Positions 28,338 to 36,760 of a DNA stretch of 64,000 bases are shown piece after piece. The notes under the pieces were generated by a model. That model saw only the letters and a list, made by a program, of their open reading frames with translations, did no database searches and was not told the origin of the DNA. Every line of letters starts with the position of its first letter. Position 1 is the stretch's first letter. Made by a program: the position numbers and the translations under genes. The stretch covers positions 496,001-560,000 of the forward strand of contig JBFMGG010000007.1 in the NCBI GenBank assembly GCA_040752835.1, written 5' to 3'. The DNA comes from Campylobacterota bacterium (GTDB lineage: Bacteria > Campylobacterota > Campylobacteria > Campylobacterales > Sulfurimonadaceae).

Positions 28338-28670
28338 CTACGCCAGTTTAAAAGTAGCTCCCTGATCGGGAACGAGCGAAAGCGTAACGTGCTGATTGAT
28401 TAGTGCGTTATATTTTGAAACTTCGATGGGGAGAAGATCATCCGAAGTTGCGATTTGAATGAGCTGGGAACGCTTTGCGTGTGAAACAATTTCAACACCG
28501 TTAATCGTTTGCTTGTTCAGATACGGAACTGTAAAGTTCAGGATAACGCGGGCAGGGTAGGGATTACCGTTAAAGACACCCCCCTTTTTGAAATCGACAC
28601 CCTCGAGAGTACCGATCATATACAGACCGTGAAAATCACGGATATTCTCTTTTTTGACTTCCTGAGACAT
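28338..28670 (-). CDS. Phage ssDNA-binding protein candidate (pV-like)
   Basis: A 110-residue soluble protein with beta-rich segments (HGLYMIGTLEGVDFKKG; ARVILNFTVPYL; HVTLSLVPDQGATFKLA) consistent with an OB fold, directly upstream of the major coat gene as in filamentous phages. It should coat the single-stranded genome before virion assembly. The role rests on position, size and fold impression, not on a signature motif. Confidence 0.65.
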   Translation of the reverse strand: MSQEVKKENIRDFHGLYMIGTLEGVDFKKGGVFNGNPYPARVILNFTVPYLNKQTINGVEIVSHAKRSQLIQIATSDDLLPIEVSKYNALINQHVTLSLVPDQGATFKLA

Positions 28671-28785
28671 ATTGACCCCTTTAAATTTTGAATTTCAGGG
28701 GGCAGTTTAAAGAAAAGAAATTAGACGAAAATATATAACAGACATTCACACAAAACGACGCAATATAAAAGACGAAAAAAGACTT

Positions 28786-29046
28786 TTACGACGTTTCGCA
28801 ACCGCTGTTTTGATCCAAATTAAAAGCACGATCCAAAAAATCTATATCATCGATGAAATTCATACAAGAACGTAAAAAATCGGAGCGATTGTAAGAAATG
28901 CCCCGATCAGTACAAAACTGTTTAACAAAATCTTCACGGCGTAGAAAATCAGAATATTCGAGATCGGAAAGCCGAAAACGAATATAGTTTGAACGGGGAG
29001 AATCGGCCGTCAAAGGACGACCGAGATTAGGCTGAGTCACGTTCAT
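28786..29046 (-). CDS. Small phage protein of unknown function
   Basis: An 86-residue protein that overlaps the preceding gene by ATGA. It is charged, with RFRLSDLEYSDFLRREDFVKQF and an acidic run (FIDDIDFLDRAF). The part YNRSDFLRSCMNF could be a ribbon-helix-helix-like second helix. No named family recognised. Confidence 0.55.
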   Translation of the reverse strand: MNVTQPNLGRPLTADSPRSNYIRFRLSDLEYSDFLRREDFVKQFCTDRGISYNRSDFLRSCMNFIDDIDFLDRAFNLDQNSGCETS

Positions 29047-29318
29047 TTAATCCTCCTTCTTTTTATACGACGATTCATAGAACGAAAAATAGAAGGTTCG
29101 CCTAATACATAAAAAAAATGTTTAATAATTTCCATACCAAGAGAATATGCAGCAACACGTCTTAAATTTTGTTCTTTGTCAATATAACTTTCAGAAAGCA
29201 ACTTAGAAACATGAACATGACGAAAAAATAAACTGTCAAATTCCTCCTGGGCAATACTTTTAAAAAGTAAATACCTTTTATGATTACGATATATTTCAAA
29301 AGGATTTAAAAAAAACAT
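29043..29318 (-). CDS. Small basic phage protein of unknown function
   Basis: A 91-residue protein with a very basic C-terminus (RSMNRRIKRRRIK) and aromatic helical segments (RNHKRYLLFKSIAQEEFDSLFF). It overlaps the next gene by 4 bases. Nucleic-acid binding would fit its charge, but I do not recognise a family. Confidence 0.55.
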   Translation of the reverse strand: MFFLNPFEIYRNHKRYLLFKSIAQEEFDSLFFRHVHVSKLLSESYIDKEQNLRRVAAYSLGMEIIKHFFYVLGEPSIFRSMNRRIKRRRIK

Positions 29319-29327
29319 TTTAACCCC

Positions 29328-29632
29328 CTAATAATCATTATGTAAACGACAATTAGGATTAAATTCACCGTCGTCACCATTATAAGTAGCACCACGGGAA
29401 CCATCATAACTATAAAAACTAATAGTGTAACGACTAAAATAATGCGGATCATCGATTGAATCAATTAATACGCCAAAATTTATAAGCTCATCAAAAGAAA
29501 TCAAATAGATGCGACGATTAAATTTTTTGAACTTTTGATTTTAATAAGTGAGGCACGAACAGAAGAATTACGACCAGCACCAAGAGCAGAACGAAGAAAC
29601 GAATCAGTTTCAGGAAAAAGGAATTTACTCAT
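29328..29632 (-). pseudogene. Phage gene split by a frameshift at a poly-A tract
   Basis: From ATG 29632 the frame gives 43 residues (MSKFLFPETDSFLRSALGAG onward) and stops at 29501. The -1 frame continues from the same place as KKFNRRIYLISFDELINFGV to a TAG at 29328, ending CRLHNDY. A single extra A in the coding-strand A6 run (29523-29528) restores one protein of about 100 residues. It may be a mutation, a read error, or -1 slippage on A AAA AAT. The product is not recognised. Confidence 0.6.
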
Positions 29633-29633
29633 T

Positions 29634-29846
29634 TTAAGCCTTTAATTTTTTATGATCTTCGATAGCAACGGACATTAAAGCAACTAATAGAGAAGCGAAA
29701 GAAACATTGTTTTCTTTCGCAACTGAAGAAAAATCATTTTTTAAATCGATAGGACAACGAAACGTAAGCTGTATTTTTTCAGATTTCTTACGACAACGCA
29801 AAAGAGCATTAGATAGATCAGACATGTGAAACTCCTTTTTAGACAT
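29634..29846 (-). CDS. Ribbon-helix-helix-like phage protein
   Basis: About 70 residues from MSKKEFH, or 63 from an in-frame ATG at 29825 that has the better AAGGAG ribosome-binding site. The pattern KIQLTFRCPIDLKNDFSSVAKENNVSFASLLVALMSVAIEDH is a beta-strand followed by two helices, as in RHH regulators. The 29846 start overlaps the stop of the upstream split gene, which would couple them. A regulator of phage genes is likely. Confidence 0.6.
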   Translation of the reverse strand: MSKKEFHMSDLSNALLRCRKKSEKIQLTFRCPIDLKNDFSSVAKENNVSFASLLVALMSVAIEDHKKLKA

Positions 29847-30070
29847 GATGAATCCCCTCAAACGATTTGTTGAAAATCAAAGTATCAAGCGCCGAACGAA
29901 TGAGAGCTGAAACGGATACCTTTTGATATTCAGCAACTTTTACAAGGTAATCATGTTGCTTTTTTTGAAAGCTGAAACGTACAAATAAGCTTTTTATCGA
30001 TAACGATTGACTGCTCAGGATGATCTGAAACATCATCGAAAAGAGACGGTGTATAAGAAAACTTAGACAT
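29839..30070 (-). pseudogene. Frameshifted ribbon-helix-helix gene of the prophage
   Basis: ATG 30070 with a good AAGGAG gives 39 residues, ending at TGA 29951 just after an A7 run (29960-29966). If that run is one base shorter, the protein continues as TFQLSKKQHDYLVKVAEYQKV through SALIRSALDTLIF to 29839, a clean RHH fold of about 76 residues. It is thus broken by one inserted A, or made by slippage. The other frame alone starts with an implausible N-terminus. Confidence 0.65.
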
Positions 30071-30080
30071 ATAAAACTCC

Positions 30081-30764
30081 TTAAAAGCCTAATGACTCAT
30101 AAACCCCAAAGACGTCAAATCCAGCAGGGAAATTATTGACCGCAGAGCGGCGAGCAAATGTTTCGTAAGCGTAAAGCGTTTTTTTATGACGCTTGTTTTT
30201 TTCGTCCAACAAGGAAGCACGAATCTGAGCACGATAGGCGAAGGGGTTTTTGACACGAGAAGATTTACATACGAAATCTAGAAAATTCTCAATGTGAGGA
30301 AAACGATGATCCGAAAAATCATCGACAATCTCAACATAAGATACATTCTCTCTCTCAGTATTATTTTTTACTTCTCTCTTTTTTATTAAATCAGGGGATT
30401 TTCCGCTGACGGTTTTTCCGCTGGCGGTTTTTCCCCTAACGGTATCCGTCGGGGGATTTTCCCCTAACGGTAAAGGAACGTCAGAAATGGTGTAAATCAT
30501 AGAGCCGAAATTACCTTTTTTATTATTCTGCCTACGATCAAGATAACCATGTTTTTCGAGTTCTTTAAGCGCAGATTTAACGCTATCTTCACCGTCTTTA
30601 GACTCTTTGGCAATACGATCAGCAGAAAAAGCCCAGTTGTCAGGTTTGGAAATCAAATAGAGATACAAACCTTTAGCCTTGAGACTTATTTTCTCATCGT
30701 TGATAATATGATTCGGGGTTATGGTAAAATTGTTACTGTAAGATTTACGCAGTTGTGCAGACAT
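30081..30764 (-). CDS. Phage helix-turn-helix replication or regulatory protein
   Basis: A 227-residue protein from ATG 30764, which has AGGAG seven bases upstream. The N-terminal winged helix (LYLYLISKPDNWAFSADRIAKESKDGEDSV then LEKHGYLDRR) matches the HTH found at the start of many plasmid and phage replication proteins. A linker with short repeats (TVRGKTASGKTVSGKSP) leads to a helical C-terminus. It could be an accessory replication protein or repressor. Confidence 0.7.
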   Translation of the reverse strand: MSAQLRKSYSNNFTITPNHIINDEKISLKAKGLYLYLISKPDNWAFSADRIAKESKDGEDSVKSALKELEKHGYLDRRQNNKKGNFGSMIYTISDVPLPLGENPPTDTVRGKTASGKTVSGKSPDLIKKREVKNNTERENVSYVEIVDDFSDHRFPHIENFLDFVCKSSRVKNPFAYRAQIRASLLDEKNKRHKKTLYAYETFARRSAVNNFPAGFDVFGVYESLGF

Positions 30765-30975
30765 CGTCGAACTCCTGTAATAAATCTTTAGCACGTTTAA
30801 CTACCAGCGCCGTTTTGTATCGAGCACGAGACGATGGTAATTGATTTACGATTAGTTCAAGATCGGATCGAGAAAGAAAGAAACGATCCTGAACGCCTAT
30901 TGCTTTAAACCGACGAACGAAATGCTTAACATCTACGTTTAAGCCAGAAAAGAAAAAATCCACCGATACACTCAT
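30745..30975 (-). CDS. First small gene of the phage minus-strand block, unknown function
   Basis: A 76-residue protein overlapping the next gene by 20 bases. Segments FVRRFKAIGVQDRFFLSRSDLELIVNQLP and ARYKTALVVKRAKDLLQEF look helical. It begins about 62 bases from attR, so any phage promoter for the block lies between them. No family recognised. Confidence 0.5.
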   Translation of the reverse strand: MSVSVDFFFSGLNVDVKHFVRRFKAIGVQDRFFLSRSDLELIVNQLPSSRARYKTALVVKRAKDLLQEFDDVCTTA

Positions 30976-31157: not shown

Positions 31158-32210
31158 ATGAGGCCAGCCGGACCGAAGACTTTGTTCGTCATTGTGATCG
31201 CCCTGCTCGCCGGTGTGATGTTTATCGTAACGGCTCCGAACGAGCGACCCGGGCTCACGGCGGCTCCGTCCGTTTCCGGCGACACGGGATCGTCCGCCTT
31301 TGATCACAACCGTTCCAACCATTTGGTGTATCTGGTTTCCGATACCCGGATTCCGTACTGGAGAATCATGGCGCGCGGTATTGAAAACGCGGCCGAGGGC
31401 TACGGTTACGCCCTGAGCGTCTACGATGCCCGAAACGACCCCAAAAAAGAGCTTGAGTTCACCGCCCGCGCGATTCGGGAAAAAGCGACCGGGATTGTCG
31501 TCTCCCCTACTACCTCCTCGGCCTGTACCACGATTCTCAAGCTGGCCGAAAAAGCGGGGATACCCGTCGTGATCGCCGATATCGGTACGGACGGCGGGCA
31601 ATACGTCTCCTACATCGCTTCGGACAACAAAACGGGTGCCTACCGCATCGGACAGGTTTTAACCCGTGCCCTCAAAGCATCAGGACGGCAAGGCGGACGT
31701 GTCGGAATTATCGCCATACCCCAAAAAAGGCTAAACGGTCAGGCACGCACGGCCGGATTCATGCAGGCTCTTGAAGAAGCGGGATACAAAGGTGCGGGGA
31801 TCAAACAGCAATCGACCTTTTCGTATCAGGAGACCTACGATTACACGCAAGAGCTGATTGCCCGAACGCCCGATCTTCGTGCCGTCTGGCTGCAAGGTTC
31901 GGACCGCTACCGCGGTGCGCTCGACGCGATCGCCGATGCCGGAAAGAAAAACGAAATCCTCCTCGTGACGTTTGACGCCGAACCCGAATTTCTGCGGTTG
32001 ATACCTGAAGGGGTCCTGTTAGGATCGGCGATGCAGCAGCCCTATCTGATGGGGCGGGAAGCCGTCGCGACGCTGGACCGGCATTTGCGGGGTTATCCGG
32101 TCGAAAAAAATCGCCTCCTCCCCGTTTTGGCCGTATCGGCCGACAACATCGCCCAAGAGCTCCCGACCATCCGTCGTAACGTCCTGGGAATCGAAGGAGA
32201 ATCCGAATGA
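31158..32210 (+). CDS. Periplasmic sugar-type binding protein, signal input for the next gene
   Basis: A 350-residue protein with an N-terminal membrane anchor or signal (TLFVIVIALLAGVMFIVTA) and the fold of LacI/ribose-binding type periplasmic proteins: LVYLVSDTRIPYWRIMARGIE, ATGIVVSPTTSS, GIPVVIADIGTDGG, SYIASDNKTGAYRIGQVL and VWLQGSDRYRGALDAIADAG. No ABC permease or ATPase is next to it. It overlaps a membrane GGDEF-EAL gene by 4 bases, so it more likely senses a ligand for c-di-GMP control than imports one. GAGGAAA precedes the ATG. Confidence 0.85.
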   Translation: MRPAGPKTLFVIVIALLAGVMFIVTAPNERPGLTAAPSVSGDTGSSAFDHNRSNHLVYLVSDTRIPYWRIMARGIENAAEGYGYALSVYDARNDPKKELEFTARAIREKATGIVVSPTTSSACTTILKLAEKAGIPVVIADIGTDGGQYVSYIASDNKTGAYRIGQVLTRALKASGRQGGRVGIIAIPQKRLNGQARTAGFMQALEEAGYKGAGIKQQSTFSYQETYDYTQELIARTPDLRAVWLQGSDRYRGALDAIADAGKKNEILLVTFDAEPEFLRLIPEGVLLGSAMQQPYLMGREAVATLDRHLRGYPVEKNRLLPVLAVSADNIAQELPTIRRNVLGIEGESE

Positions 32211-34255
32211 ACCGGCTGAAACTCCATTTTTCCCGTTATTCGTTCTACGTGATTTTGGGCGTTATCATCGTCTCCACCGTCGTCACCGTGATGTCGGTCC
32301 ACGCAGCCTACAGTTACCGAACCATCAAAAACGGCAAAATCGCCGACATGCAGGAAAATTCGCGCCTCACCGTCGCCGCGCTGCACAAAAACGTCGCCGG
32401 GATGATGGCCGCTTACGCCGTCAACGACTACGAAACGCTGCTTCGGAACGAAATGGACCGCCGTGACAACTACGCGGTGATCGTCGAAGACTACAATATG
32501 GGAAAAATCCTCGGAAAGGAGAGTTATCGGACGGGCCAGATCCGCGACAACGCATGGAATGCGATCGATTTCGATCCCGACAATCCCGAACACCTCAAAG
32601 CCCTATCCGATGCCTATTCCTCGGAAAGCCACGATGTCCTGACCCCGCAGGGCAAAAAAATCGGGACCATCACCGTCTATCTCTCCGACCGTACACTTAA
32701 CGAAGCATTCCGCCGGCTCATCGTCGATACACTCATCAATACCCTCGTCATTTCGGTTTTTTTGATCGTCCTGCTGTTTATTACGATCCGCCTTTTCGTT
32801 CTTAAACCCCTTTCAGACATCATCTCAACGATCGATGAGGGGAACGCACAGGGTATCCCGCTCAAACCCGTCCCCGGAGAAGGATCCCGTGAAATTTTCG
32901 CCCTCGCGGACAAAATGAACCGGATGATCGATACCATCAAAAATTCCCAAAAGGCGCTGCAGCATCAGGCAACCCACGATACCCTCACGGGACTTGCCAA
33001 CCGCACCCTGTTCGACGACCGTCTCGAACAGGGGATACTCAAGGCCAAACGCAACCATACACGGCTCGCCCTGCTCTTCATTGACCTGGACCATTTCAAA
33101 GAGATCAACGACTCGATGGGGCACAAGGTCGGGGACAAAGCGCTCAAAATCGTCACCCGCAGGCTTGAAAAAACAATCCGCGAAGAAGACACCCTGGCAC
33201 GGCTGGGGGGAGACGAATTCACCGTCATTCTCGAAGGGATACACGAACCCCAGGACGCGTCGCTGCTGGCCGAAAAAATTCTAAAAGCCCTCTCCGAGCC
33301 GATGACGATCGAGAACCGTGTTTTCTACAGCGGCTGCAGCATCGGCATCAGCCTCTATCCCGACAACGGCGATTTGCCCGACGACCTGCTCAAATACGCC
33401 GATGCGGCGATGTACAACGCCAAAAATGAAGGGCGCAATACGTTCCAGTACTACAGCACCGAAATGACCGAACGTGCGCTTGAGCGCGTCGTGATGGAGA
33501 CCAACCTCCGCGAAGGGCTTAAAAAGGGGGAATTCGTCGTCCACTACCAGCCTCAGGTTGACGGCCGCAACGGCACGGTCATCGGCATGGAGGCGCTGGT
33601 ACGGTGGCAAAGCCCCGAATACGGGCTCGTATCTCCGGCCAAATTCATCCCCATCGCCGAATCGAGCGGCCTGATCGTCGAGCTGGACCGTCACGTGATG
33701 AAAACGGCGATGATTCAGATAGAAAGCTGGTATTCGGCAGGCTTCAATCCGGGTGTCATGGCGATGAACCTGGCGGCCAAACAGCTCCAGCAAAAGGACT
33801 TTTTCGATTATCTCGAAAACCTGATTGCCGAAACGGGGTGCAGACCCGAATGGATCGAGCTCGAAGTGACCGAAAGCCAGATTATGATCCATCCCGAAGA
33901 AGCGATCCGGATCCTCTCCCGACTCAGCGACATCGGGGTGCAACTGGCGGTAGACGATTTCGGAACGGGGTATTCGTCCCTCTCCTATCTCAAAAAATTT
34001 CCGATCAACAAACTCAAAATCGACCGTACCTTTGTTCAGGACCTGCCGCACGACGAAGAAGATGCCGCGATCACCAAAGCGATCGTCGCCCTTGCGCGCA
34101 ACCTGAACCTTTCGGTCCTTGCCGAAGGGGTTGAAACCGTCGAGCAGCAGGCATTCTTGATCGAAAACGGATGCGACCGTATCCAGGGATACCTCTATTC
34201 CAAACCGCTCCCTGCCAAGGAGATCGAAGCGCTTCTTTCAAAGACGTTAGGGTAA
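32207..34255 (+). CDS. Membrane GGDEF-EAL protein, dual-function c-di-GMP enzyme
   Basis: A 682-residue inner-membrane protein. Helices at about 10-35 and 175-205 enclose a periplasmic sensor domain, followed by a HAMP-like linker, a GGDEF domain with intact RLGGDEF and an RxxD inhibitory site (REED), and an EAL domain with intact MEALVRW, LEVTESQ and VDDFGTGYSSLSYL. Both synthesis and breakdown of c-di-GMP look possible. The overlap with the binding-protein gene suggests that protein docks on its periplasmic domain. Confidence 0.92.
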   Translation: MNRLKLHFSRYSFYVILGVIIVSTVVTVMSVHAAYSYRTIKNGKIADMQENSRLTVAALHKNVAGMMAAYAVNDYETLLRNEMDRRDNYAVIVEDYNMGKILGKESYRTGQIRDNAWNAIDFDPDNPEHLKALSDAYSSESHDVLTPQGKKIGTITVYLSDRTLNEAFRRLIVDTLINTLVISVFLIVLLFITIRLFVLKPLSDIISTIDEGNAQGIPLKPVPGEGSREIFALADKMNRMIDTIKNSQKALQHQATHDTLTGLANRTLFDDRLEQGILKAKRNHTRLALLFIDLDHFKEINDSMGHKVGDKALKIVTRRLEKTIREEDTLARLGGDEFTVILEGIHEPQDASLLAEKILKALSEPMTIENRVFYSGCSIGISLYPDNGDLPDDLLKYADAAMYNAKNEGRNTFQYYSTEMTERALERVVMETNLREGLKKGEFVVHYQPQVDGRNGTVIGMEALVRWQSPEYGLVSPAKFIPIAESSGLIVELDRHVMKTAMIQIESWYSAGFNPGVMAMNLAAKQLQQKDFFDYLENLIAETGCRPEWIELEVTESQIMIHPEEAIRILSRLSDIGVQLAVDDFGTGYSSLSYLKKFPINKLKIDRTFVQDLPHDEEDAAITKAIVALARNLNLSVLAEGVETVEQQAFLIENGCDRIQGYLYSKPLPAKEIEALLSKTLG

Positions 34256-34265
34256 ACTTGCGCTT

Positions 34266-34472
34266 ATGGATACACGTAAAGAACAGCTCATTACCGACAT
34301 TGAAAACCTTCTCAACCGCTACGAGGGGATAAAACCCACCCACATCGACCCGAAACTGCTTCGTTTCATGGACGAAACCACCCTCCTTCACATCATCGAC
34401 TCCCTGTTGCGACAGCAGGAAAAAACCAACGAAACGAATATCGAATGGCTGGAACAATTTAAAAAATATTAA
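34266..34472 (+). CDS. Small helical protein of unknown function
   Basis: A 68-residue acidic protein, ten bases after the GGDEF-EAL stop. It is predicted helical throughout (LITDIENLLNRYEGIKPTHIDP; LLHIIDSLLRQQEKTNETNIEWLEQF). It could be a small partner of the signalling genes around it. No named family recognised. Confidence 0.6.
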   Translation: MDTRKEQLITDIENLLNRYEGIKPTHIDPKLLRFMDETTLLHIIDSLLRQQEKTNETNIEWLEQFKKY

Positions 34473-34567
34473 AAGTTTTTTTAAGGCAATGCTAAAAAAT
34501 ATTACCTATAATACCAACAATAAAACACAATGATATTTTTTAACATATCATAATCCAAGGAGATTTC

Positions 34568-35119
34568 ATGTCCTCTAACGTCGATTTGATCCAACTGACC
34601 GAACAAACCAAAAAGCTGACCGCACTCGTCGTCGAAGACGAAGTTGTCGCCAACGATCTGCTGAGTTCGACTTTCAAAAACTTTTTCGGCGAAGTGACTT
34701 CGGCCTATAATGGCGTAGAAGCGCTTCGTATGTACGAAAAAGTGAATCCAGACATCGTTTTCGTCGACATCATCATGCCCGAGATCGACGGTATCGAGCT
34801 GGCACGCCGCATCCGTGCGATCAACCCCAACCAGATCATCATCGTCATTTCGGCTAGCAACGACATCCAGAAAATCTCCGAGTCGATCGAGGTAGGCGTC
34901 AACAGCTTTATCCAAAAACCGATCGACACCAAAAAAATCCTCGAAATGCTTCAGAACATCGCGTCGCTAGTTTCCAAACGGAAAAAAATCGAGACCAAAA
35001 CCTTCTCGATCTCTCTGCCGCTTGACATCTACGAGCTGGTTGACGAAAACGCGAAAGCCGAAAGCATTTCCAAAAACGCCGTCATCATCCGCGCCCTTCG
35101 CTCTTTCTACAACAACTGA
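34568..35119 (+). CDS. Response regulator with a C-terminal ribbon-helix-helix domain
   Basis: A 183-residue protein. The receiver domain (about 15-130) has the phosphoacceptor region DIVFVDIIMPEIDG, acidic pair VVEDE, switch Ser in IVISASND and Lys in FIQKPID, all intact. After a short linker (KKIETKTFSISLPLDIYELVDENAKAESISK) comes an Arc-type ribbon-helix-helix (about 145-183). That DNA-binding output is unusual for receivers. AAGGAG precedes the ATG. No histidine kinase is next to it. Confidence 0.85.
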   Translation: MSSNVDLIQLTEQTKKLTALVVEDEVVANDLLSSTFKNFFGEVTSAYNGVEALRMYEKVNPDIVFVDIIMPEIDGIELARRIRAINPNQIIIVISASNDIQKISESIEVGVNSFIQKPIDTKKILEMLQNIASLVSKRKKIETKTFSISLPLDIYELVDENAKAESISKNAVIIRALRSFYNN

Positions 35120-35181
35120 TTGCCTCTCCCCTCTTCCGGGGAAAAACCGATTGATTTAGCTTTTTTTCAGAATTAAAAAAC

Positions 35182-35187
35182 TATAAT
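35182..35187 (+). promoter_or_regulatory. Possible -10 element of the tRNA-Glu gene
   Basis: TATAAT lies 38 bases before the first tRNA base, in an AT-rich stretch with a T-run upstream and no clear -35 box. Confidence 0.4.
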
Positions 35188-35224
35188 TTCGGCTCAGGTT
35201 CATCCTGCTTCTTCTTTTTAAAGT

Positions 35225-35299
35225 GGCCCCATCATCTAATGGTTAGGATTCCAGATTTTCATTCTGGCCATAGGGGTTCGAATCCCCTTGGGGTCACCA
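35225..35299 (+). tRNA. tRNA-Glu (anticodon TTC)
   Basis: The 75-base sequence folds into a full cloverleaf: acceptor GGCCCCA pairs with TGGGGTC (one G-U), anticodon stem CCAGA/TCTGG encloses the loop TTTTCAT with anticodon TTC, and the T-arm is GGGG/CCCC around TTCGAAT. The 3' CCA is encoded. Confidence 0.97.
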
Positions 35300-35409
35300 C
35301 TTTAAACTCCCTAATTTACATACTTTCAAGATACTTTTAGATTTAACGGACGACCATTGCGGTAATTACTCTCATTTGATCGATATTATTGAAGTCGTAA
35401 AGCAGAGCC

Positions 35410-35434
35410 GGTCCTGTCTATGCAAGACAGGACC
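35410..35434. terminator. Stem-loop between the tRNA and the corC-like gene
   Basis: GGTCCTGTCT and AGACAGGACC form a perfect 10-bp stem around ATGCA, 18 bases beyond the stop of the convergent CorC-type gene. It may terminate that gene; there is no T-run. Confidence 0.55.
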
Positions 35435-35452
35435 GCAAGCATTGAAGAGATT

Positions 35453-36760
35453 CTAAGCGATTTTTTTGCAAAGAAGTTTTTTGATCCGTTTATTGTTGAT
35501 CTCCAAAATTTCATAGGAGTACATGCCGTCCTCCACAAAATCGCCGACTTCGGGCAGGCGTCCGATCAGATTGAAAACCCGTCCTCCGATGGTGACGGAG
35601 TGTTCCGCTTCATCAAAATCGATCCCCAAAATCTCTTCGACCTTTTCGAGATTGACCATGCCGTCAAACTCGAAGGTATGCTCATCGATCTGGCGGATCA
35701 TTTCGTTTTTCGAATCATGTTCGTCGCTCGTATCGCCGACGATCTCTTCGAGAATATCTTCCATCGTCAACAATCCCGACGTTCCGCCGTACTCGTCGAC
35801 GACCAGTGCGATATGGATCCGTTCTTTGTTCATTTTGCTGAGGATGTCGGCGACCGAAGCGTTTTCGGGGACCATGATAATGGGCCGGACAAACTGCGAC
35901 ATATCGACGATCTGCTGTTTCAGGGCGTTGTTGAGCAAATCGCGTGTGTGGATCATGCCGCTGATATTGTCCTTGCCGCCGTGACAGTACGGATAGCGGG
36001 TATAGCGTGTCGTCGTGATAAGGGCTACGTTCTCCTCGAATGACTTTTCGGAATTGATGCACACCATATCTTTTCGGGGGGTCATGATCTCTTTGGCGAC
36101 GGTTTCGGAAAAGTCGACCGCGTTTTTGATGATTTCGCTCTCTACCGAATCGATATACCCCCCTTTGAAACTCTCATTGACGATGATGCGGATTTCTTCT
36201 TCGGAATGTGCCATTTCATGTTCGGATGAAGGGGCGATGCCGATTCTTTTCAGAAAAAAAGCGGCGACGATATCGAAAAAGCGGATCAACGGATAAAACA
36301 GTATCCAGAAAAGATACAGCGGTCTGGCGATAATCAGCGCCATTGTTTCGGCTTTGGCGATCGCGACCGATTTCGGGACCAGTTCTCCGAATACGACGTG
36401 TAAAAAGGTAATGACGGTAAACGCGATTGCGAAACTGACGGTATGCAACAAAACCGGGTTGTCACCGAAAAAGTGATTGAACGTCGGCTCTATCAGCCTT
36501 GCCAATGCCGGCTCCCCGATCCACCCCAATGCGAGCGACGAAAGGGTGATTCCCAGTTGGGTAGCGCTCAGGTAGGTGTCGAGCGAATTGGACATTTTAA
36601 GCGCGAGCGAAGCGTTTGGTTTTCCGTGTTTGGCCATCTCTTCAAGTTTACTTCGTCTTACTTTGACAATGGCAAACTCGGAGAGGACAAAAAAACCGTT
36701 AAGTAGAACTAAAAACAGTGCTGCAACAAGCATTGCAGCGGATTGTAAATCCGATTCCAA
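35453..36760 (-). CDS. CorC/HlyC-type membrane protein with DUF21 and CBS domains
   Basis: A 435-residue inner-membrane protein. The DUF21/CNNM domain (about 1-190) has four membrane helices, beginning LVAALFLVLLNGFFVLSEFAIVKVRRSKLEEMA. A pair of CBS motifs (about 210-330; IMTPRKDMV, LVVDEYGGTSGLLTMEDILEEIVG) and a C-terminal CorC_HlyC domain follow. Such proteins are linked to magnesium or other divalent-cation efflux. Named 'haemolysin' only by history. Confidence 0.9.
   Translation of the reverse strand: MESDLQSAAMLVAALFLVLLNGFFVLSEFAIVKVRRSKLEEMAKHGKPNASLALKMSNSLDTYLSATQLGITLSSLALGWIGEPALARLIEPTFNHFFGDNPVLLHTVSFAIAFTVITFLHVVFGELVPKSVAIAKAETMALIIARPLYLFWILFYPLIRFFDIVAAFFLKRIGIAPSSEHEMAHSEEEIRIIVNESFKGGYIDSVESEIIKNAVDFSETVAKEIMTPRKDMVCINSEKSFEENVALITTTRYTRYPYCHGGKDNISGMIHTRDLLNNALKQQIVDMSQFVRPIIMVPENASVADILSKMNKERIHIALVVDEYGGTSGLLTMEDILEEIVGDTSDEHDSKNEMIRQIDEHTFEFDGMVNLEKVEEILGIDFDEAEHSVTIGGRVFNLIGRLPEVGDFVEDGMYSYEILEINNKRIKKLLCKKIA

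Follow-up and report, generated by a model that had tools for sequence, protein, structure and literature searches.

A conserved response regulator of the Campylobacterota with a predicted ribbon-helix-helix output domain

Results

The regulator gene and its neighbours

The window, the whole stretch of 64,000 nucleotides that was analysed, carries a gene for a response regulator (REC-RHH) in which a receiver is followed by a predicted ribbon-helix-helix (RHH) domain. The regulator and the small gene beside it have the following features.

34266–34472, forward strand: small gene (68 amino acids) directly upstream of the regulator; a conserved neighbour, falling in one cluster at 68 of 82 loci
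34568–35119, forward strand: REC-RHH response regulator gene, ATG at 34568 to TGA ending at 35119 (stop included), 183 amino acids
34625–34951, forward strand: receiver domain, residues 20–128 (Pfam Response_reg, E 2e-25; AlphaFold2 receiver fold)
34766–34768, forward strand: codon of D67, the predicted phospho-acceptor (Asp in 92 of 93 distinct orthologues, Glu in one)
35003–35110, forward strand: RHH domain, residues 146–181 (Pfam RHH_1; AlphaFold2 helices at 152–165 and 169–182)

The neighbours at this locus are the small gene, genes for a GGDEF-EAL protein, a periplasmic-binding protein and a CNNM/CBS/CorC protein, and a tRNA-Glu gene; an Rfam scan over 33900–35600 returned nothing besides the tRNA. 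The small gene was rejected as an obligate partner of the regulator: members of its family turn up in 154 of the 397 phylum genomes, the RHH profile described below matches 52 of these 397, and three f4 genomes (G039, G058 and G191) carry the small gene elsewhere. The 68-residue protein has scattered, weak Pfam matches and belongs to no Pfam family, and a Foldseek search with its model (pLDDT 75) returned nothing at E ≤ 0.001. A link to the GGDEF-EAL and periplasmic-binding genes farther upstream was likewise discarded: they are not conserved context, since the window copies (gene positions -2 and -3) are without counterparts among the 82 loci; other GGDEF-EAL genes recur near the regulator (cluster 20, 6 loci). 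In the window itself the periplasmic-binding gene is followed directly by the GGDEF-EAL gene (31158–34255), and the two may form a ligand-sensing c-di-GMP pair. At 28338–30794, small minus-strand genes without Pfam matches lie beside an HTH_36 protein, and are perhaps part of an integrated mobile element.

Domain make-up and predicted fold

In a Pfam search with the full protein, the RHH_1 (copG family) match scores 21.2 bits, barely above the curated cut-off of 20.5, and the C-terminal 58 residues by themselves score 23.7 bits. When 49 orthologues were scanned individually, Response_reg was found in all 49 and RHH_1 in 46 (E ≤ 0.05), these 46 not being independent tests because they are mutually related. 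Against NCBIfam, the whole protein gave receiver matches below their own cut-offs, among the best 25 of 103 matches, and the tail gave two weak matches, to BrnA antitoxin (E 0.028) and YlcI/YnfO (E 0.033). Searched by sequence against solved structures, the tail alone had no match at E ≤ 10, and the top two matches of a 17-row tail profile, which are not significant, were to AvtR (E 0.49) and EndoAI (E 0.82), both of which we take to be RHH proteins. The linker preceding the RHH is basic. In the receiver, the pocket comprises the acidic pair E23 and D24, the phospho-acceptor D67, S95 at the Ser/Thr position and the Lys K117.

An AlphaFold2 model of the single full-length chain, built from a 49-row alignment, has a mean pLDDT of 85.3 and a pTM of 0.67, with pLDDT below 50 at residues 1–4 and 140–143. 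It places the receiver elements in the correct order, followed by a long final helix (121–139), and against solved receivers the best VIA row gave Z 19.7 with an rmsd of 1.7 over 135 aligned residues. The tail is modelled as an extended segment at 144–151 (block 141–150, pLDDT 61) and the two helices listed above (block pLDDT 92, 92 and 87). The RHH strand is absent from this monomer model, where the segment is merely extended; an RHH sheet is built from two chains. The Foldseek matches listed for the full model are receiver proteins, and RHH proteins are not among the matches listed by Foldseek or VIA because receivers occupied those rows. Structure prediction, proposed in the preliminary description as a check on the tail, is compatible with an RHH in that the modelled C-terminus consists of an extended segment and two helices. 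The preliminary description had also called the output domain Arc-type. Its RHH nature stands, on the RHH_1 match and the compatible model, whereas the Arc-type label does not, as CopG-type RHH_1 fits better. Together, the domain matches and the model confirm the predicted make-up of the open reading frame 34568–35119, a receiver joined to a CopG-type RHH.

Conservation and spread

Within the genus of the window, an orthologue is found in 30 of 37 genomes, its own included (E ≤ 1.2e-79), and these proteins are 88–100% identical to the window protein with one exception, in genome G003, at 74%. A profile of the RHH alone has matches in 52 of 397 phylum genomes. Most lie in the window's own family, f1 (44 of 51 genomes, one match being a 21-residue fragment at a contig edge), which from the named records is probably the Sulfuricurvum/Sulfurimonas family. 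Outside f1 there are four matches in family f4 and one strong match in f6, and a further three are weak (E about 5e-4; frames of 78, 114 and 147 residues). The gene is single-copy in the genomes searched with this profile. Among the best 80 of 178 confirmed relatives, the labels include Sulfuricurvum, Sulfurimonas, Sulfurimonadaceae, Helicobacteraceae, Campylobacterales, Arcobacter and plain bacterium. A cultured relative, Sulfurimonas indica NW8N (locus L092), also carries an orthologue. No copy of the gene was detected in G029, a complete genome, or in G352, G067 and G309; these last three retain the small upstream gene. A tblastn search with the RHH tail against plasmids and phages gave no match at E ≤ 0.1.

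Residue conservation was assessed in a set of 93 distinct orthologues, to which the f6 protein does not belong. All 93 retain both domains, so the search for REC-RHH fusions in related genomes that had been suggested for this locus was answered positively, and on sequence grounds a chance fusion is ruled out, since both halves are conserved. E23, S95 and K117 are invariant (93/93), and D24 and D67 are each present in 92 of 93; the earlier claim of an intact receiver is thereby borne out, all five pocket residues being present in the window protein and in 92 of the 93 orthologues. The RHH is the better conserved half, with a mean column entropy of 0.31 bit against 0.60 bit for the receiver, and both the predicted ribbon ETKTFSI and the motif ISKNA are invariant in 93/93. 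In the f6 protein (56% identity), the pocket and ISKNA are kept, as judged by eye, and the ETKTFSI strand is altered. For eight pairs with the window gene, dN was 0.007–0.265 across both halves, and dS was near-saturated, at 0.9 or more or beyond computing.

In the orthologue of G003 (locus L030, 1492–2040), which lies in a different gene neighbourhood, the RHH is intact and the receiver degenerate, with D24S and D67E. Since D24 and D67 are lost there while the RHH is kept, phosphorylation may be dispensable in this copy. Asp-to-Glu replacement at a phospho-acceptor can mimic phosphorylation.

DNA upstream of the regulator

Three features lie between the small gene and the regulator.

34507–34512, forward strand: TATAAT, likely -10 element, conserved upstream in orthologues
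34530–34551, no strand assigned: inverted repeat, ATGATAT-N8-ATATCAT, downstream of the -10 element and ahead of the ribosome-binding site
34541–34545, forward strand: TAACA (TGTTA on the opposite strand), candidate binding half-site inside the inverted repeat

TATAAT occurs in 88 of 102 orthologous upstream regions, compared with about 36 in shuffles; a consensus promoter scan listed no forward-strand promoter at 34507–34512. TGTTA or its complement TAACA is present in 93 of the same 102 regions (about 54 in shuffles), with 182 copies of TGTTA in total where dinucleotide shuffles give 74 (sd 8); because the regions are related, this excess is less significant than the shuffles imply, a limitation that also applies to the control set. 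In this control set, low-GC regions upstream of other genes at the same loci, TGTTA is found in 78 of 185 regions and the excess is slight (107 copies versus 86, sd 8, in shuffles). Counted by group over a slightly wider stretch, it is present in 32/32 Sulfuricurvum-type and 4/4 f4 regions, and in 20/23 and 38/43 regions of two further groups; no site was counted in this stretch upstream of the G003 copy. The sites vary in spacing and orientation. These TGTTA-rich upstream regions suggest that the regulator may act on its own gene.

The inverted repeat at 34530–34551 could be an operator or an mRNA hairpin. A palindromic operator was set aside as a general feature, since only some Sulfuricurvum-type loci keep the repeat. 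Repeats with arms of 6 bp or more are seen upstream of 23 of 32 Sulfuricurvum-type genes, but they also precede 23 of the 70 remaining genes, and several of these repeats are unrelated AT-rich ones. The sequence has no exact copy elsewhere in the genome; inexact sites occur at 13 further places, giving 28 strand rows versus 8 for a reversed control pattern, and this genome probe found no regulon. In one Sulfuricurvum subgroup (L018–L021), a different perfect inverted repeat with arms of 9–13 bp, TGTTATATA...TATATAACA, spans the -10 region.

The upstream DNA bears on what the tail does. RHH folds are dimerisation modules too, and the tail of this protein could in principle merely dimerise or bind a protein partner, in which case the regulator would be no transcription factor. 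We consider this improbable given the invariant predicted ribbon, the basic linker and the enrichment of one short motif in the regulator's own promoter.

A histidine kinase beside the regulator in some relatives

No kinase adjoins the window gene, the nearest HATPase_c match being about 31 kb away in a genome with 34 HATPase_c and 51 Response_reg matches (one of the latter below cut-off). At 12 of 82 clustered loci, the downstream gene is convergent with the regulator and encodes a histidine kinase with a PAS sensor, an HQWRQPLN box and a HATPase_c domain, its Pfam HisKA match being below cut-off; among these 12 the copies at L066 (contig edge), L068 and L073 (both incomplete) are short. A kinase profile run over 61 family genomes gave ten matches above 600 bits, each covering at least 457 of 478 positions and one with an internal stop. 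In G000, a genome of the window's lineage, the best matches to a neighbour kinase comprise the catalytic core only, at 38–41%.

Adjacency was then scored as a tblastn match to either of two kinase queries (E ≤ 1e-20) lying tail-to-tail within 300 bp of the regulator, a test that detects kinases resembling those two queries. By this measure the kinase adjoins 4/4 f4 genes and 16 distinct f1 genes, all outside the Sulfuricurvum type. Where at least 900 bp of downstream sequence was available, 14 of 62 f1 genes outside the Sulfuricurvum type have it and 48 of 62 have none. No such kinase was detected beside any of 29 Sulfuricurvum-type genes (at least 87% identity), the window's included, or beside the single f6 gene. 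Record labels do not separate these groups, as the kinase loci include both 'Sulfurimonas sp. MAG313' (L079) and 'Sulfuricurvum sp. PC08-66' (L084).

The sensors of the adjoining kinases differ. In the two f4 genomes read whole, FIST_N exceeds its cut-off in the kinase and FIST_C falls short of its own; one f4 FIST kinase lies at L032 (3303–5351). The f1 kinases bear PAS domains, with an N-terminal MKQ stretch that resembles the f4 kinases. FIST-domain NosP proteins figure in papers on nitric-oxide sensing. At L031 (1067–5196), two FIST-domain histidine kinases stand in tandem beside the REC-RHH gene. L076 retains a kinase remnant match of 80 residues only, and L127 has a 267-residue kinase without a recognised sensor domain.

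One explanation of this arrangement is that the kinase is a chance neighbour kept by descent, with another target, and that no kinase was ever dedicated to the regulator. Kinases of this kind have many paralogues, with matches at E ≤ 1e-60 in 60 of 61 family genomes, and most f1 loci are without one. The identical tail-to-tail order in two families, beside regulators about 60% identical and with sensors as different as FIST and PAS, argues against mere chance, and we would give this explanation long odds. We favour an ancestral two-component pair of regulator and kinase, in which the sensor was probably replaced and the kinase probably lost from many loci, those of the window's lineage among them, where the receiver stayed intact; the direction of change is our inference. 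A description of the protein as an orphan regulator without any kinase was dropped, as it is true of the window's locus only and a kinase adjoins the gene in relatives.

Discussion

Most known DNA-binding response regulators have winged-helix or HTH outputs. Our literature search, which covered few subscription papers, found no response regulator with an RHH output, including among the regulators of these genera; domain databases may list Response_reg/RHH architectures. What is new in the genomes compared here is the histidine kinase lying tail-to-tail with the REC-RHH gene in f4 and part of f1.

Like the OmpR/PhoB, NarL/FixJ and NtrC types, the window regulator has an N-terminal receiver with a conserved pocket and a C-terminal predicted DNA-binding domain, as well as, in some relatives, a putative histidine kinase partner. 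It differs from them in that the output is a 38-residue RHH and the kinase gene is convergent with the REC-RHH gene rather than in the same operon. With CopG-type RHH regulators and antitoxins (EndoAI; NikR, AmrZ) it has the RHH_1 match in common, and with EndoAI also an IsLP strand end and two helices, in an alignment that is not significant; these proteins, unlike the window regulator, are without a receiver. PMC9696931 describes NikR of Helicobacter as an RHH protein that regulates and that senses nickel via its own domain. A Lokiarchaeum RHH-HisKA-REC architecture (PMC5847659) also combines an RHH and a receiver in one chain, although that protein is a hybrid kinase and carries its RHH at the opposite end from that of the window regulator.

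We propose, with a probability of about 0.55, that the protein is a DNA-binding regulator, activator or repressor, in which a kinase of the adjacent type phosphorylates D67, the RHH tails pair, and TGTTA sites, the regulator's own promoter included, are bound. In this mechanism the RHH would take the place of a winged helix or HTH. The neighbouring histidine kinase would phosphorylate D67, which would alter receiver pairing, and receiver pairing would in turn unite or orient two RHH tails. RHH proteins across the superfamily bind DNA as dimers, so receiver pairing could bring the tails together in this way. The paired tails would then bind short TGTTA-containing sites, among them those in the promoter of the regulator gene. 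In the window's lineage, where no kinase is adjacent, another kinase or a small phosphodonor would act on the receiver, as the intact pocket there suggests. Several observations weigh against the proposal: the many genes without such a kinase beside them, the window's included; the G003 copy, with its altered pocket and no TGTTA site counted upstream; the variable spacing and orientation of the TGTTA sites; the narrow margin of the RHH_1 match; and the altered strand of the f6 protein. Phosphorylation control, as claimed in the preliminary description, is supported indirectly by the intact pocket and by the histidine kinase adjoining the gene in some relatives, and it is from these that we infer the control itself.

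A different mode of action may apply in the window's lineage, where the receiver could serve only to dimerise while DNA binding by the RHH is constitutive; activity would then track the amount of protein or a partner. This would fit the 0/29 Sulfuricurvum-type genes with an adjoining kinase, as well as the G003 copy, with D24S and D67E beside an intact RHH. Atypical regulators of that sort are known in the same phylum: titles in the reference list of PMC9696931 report HP1021 and HP1043 of Helicobacter/Campylobacter as phosphorylation-independent. These atypical orphans also belong to the Campylobacterota, and the window's lineage is likewise without an adjacent kinase, but the window regulator differs from them in its intact pocket and its output fold. 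Retention of the five pocket residues in 92 of 93 orthologues, kinase-less ones included, would be unexpected if phosphorylation were irrelevant, and we therefore regard independence from phosphorylation as unlikely, if less so than the two alternatives weighed above.

Returning to phosphorylation control, a fuller account can be offered only tentatively, and we hold it at slightly less than even odds. It describes a conserved regulator family, nearly core in the Sulfuricurvum/Sulfurimonas family, that would descend from a pair with a FIST- or PAS-sensor kinase and act by phosphorylation-controlled, dimeric RHH binding at TGTTA, its own promoter included; in the window's lineage the kinase would have gone from the locus and another kinase would be in control.

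The fusion of a receiver to an RHH would offer a simple route from phosphorylation to DNA binding, because of the dimeric way in which RHH proteins bind DNA. The family that may use this route is conserved among a group of bacteria known to oxidise sulfur.
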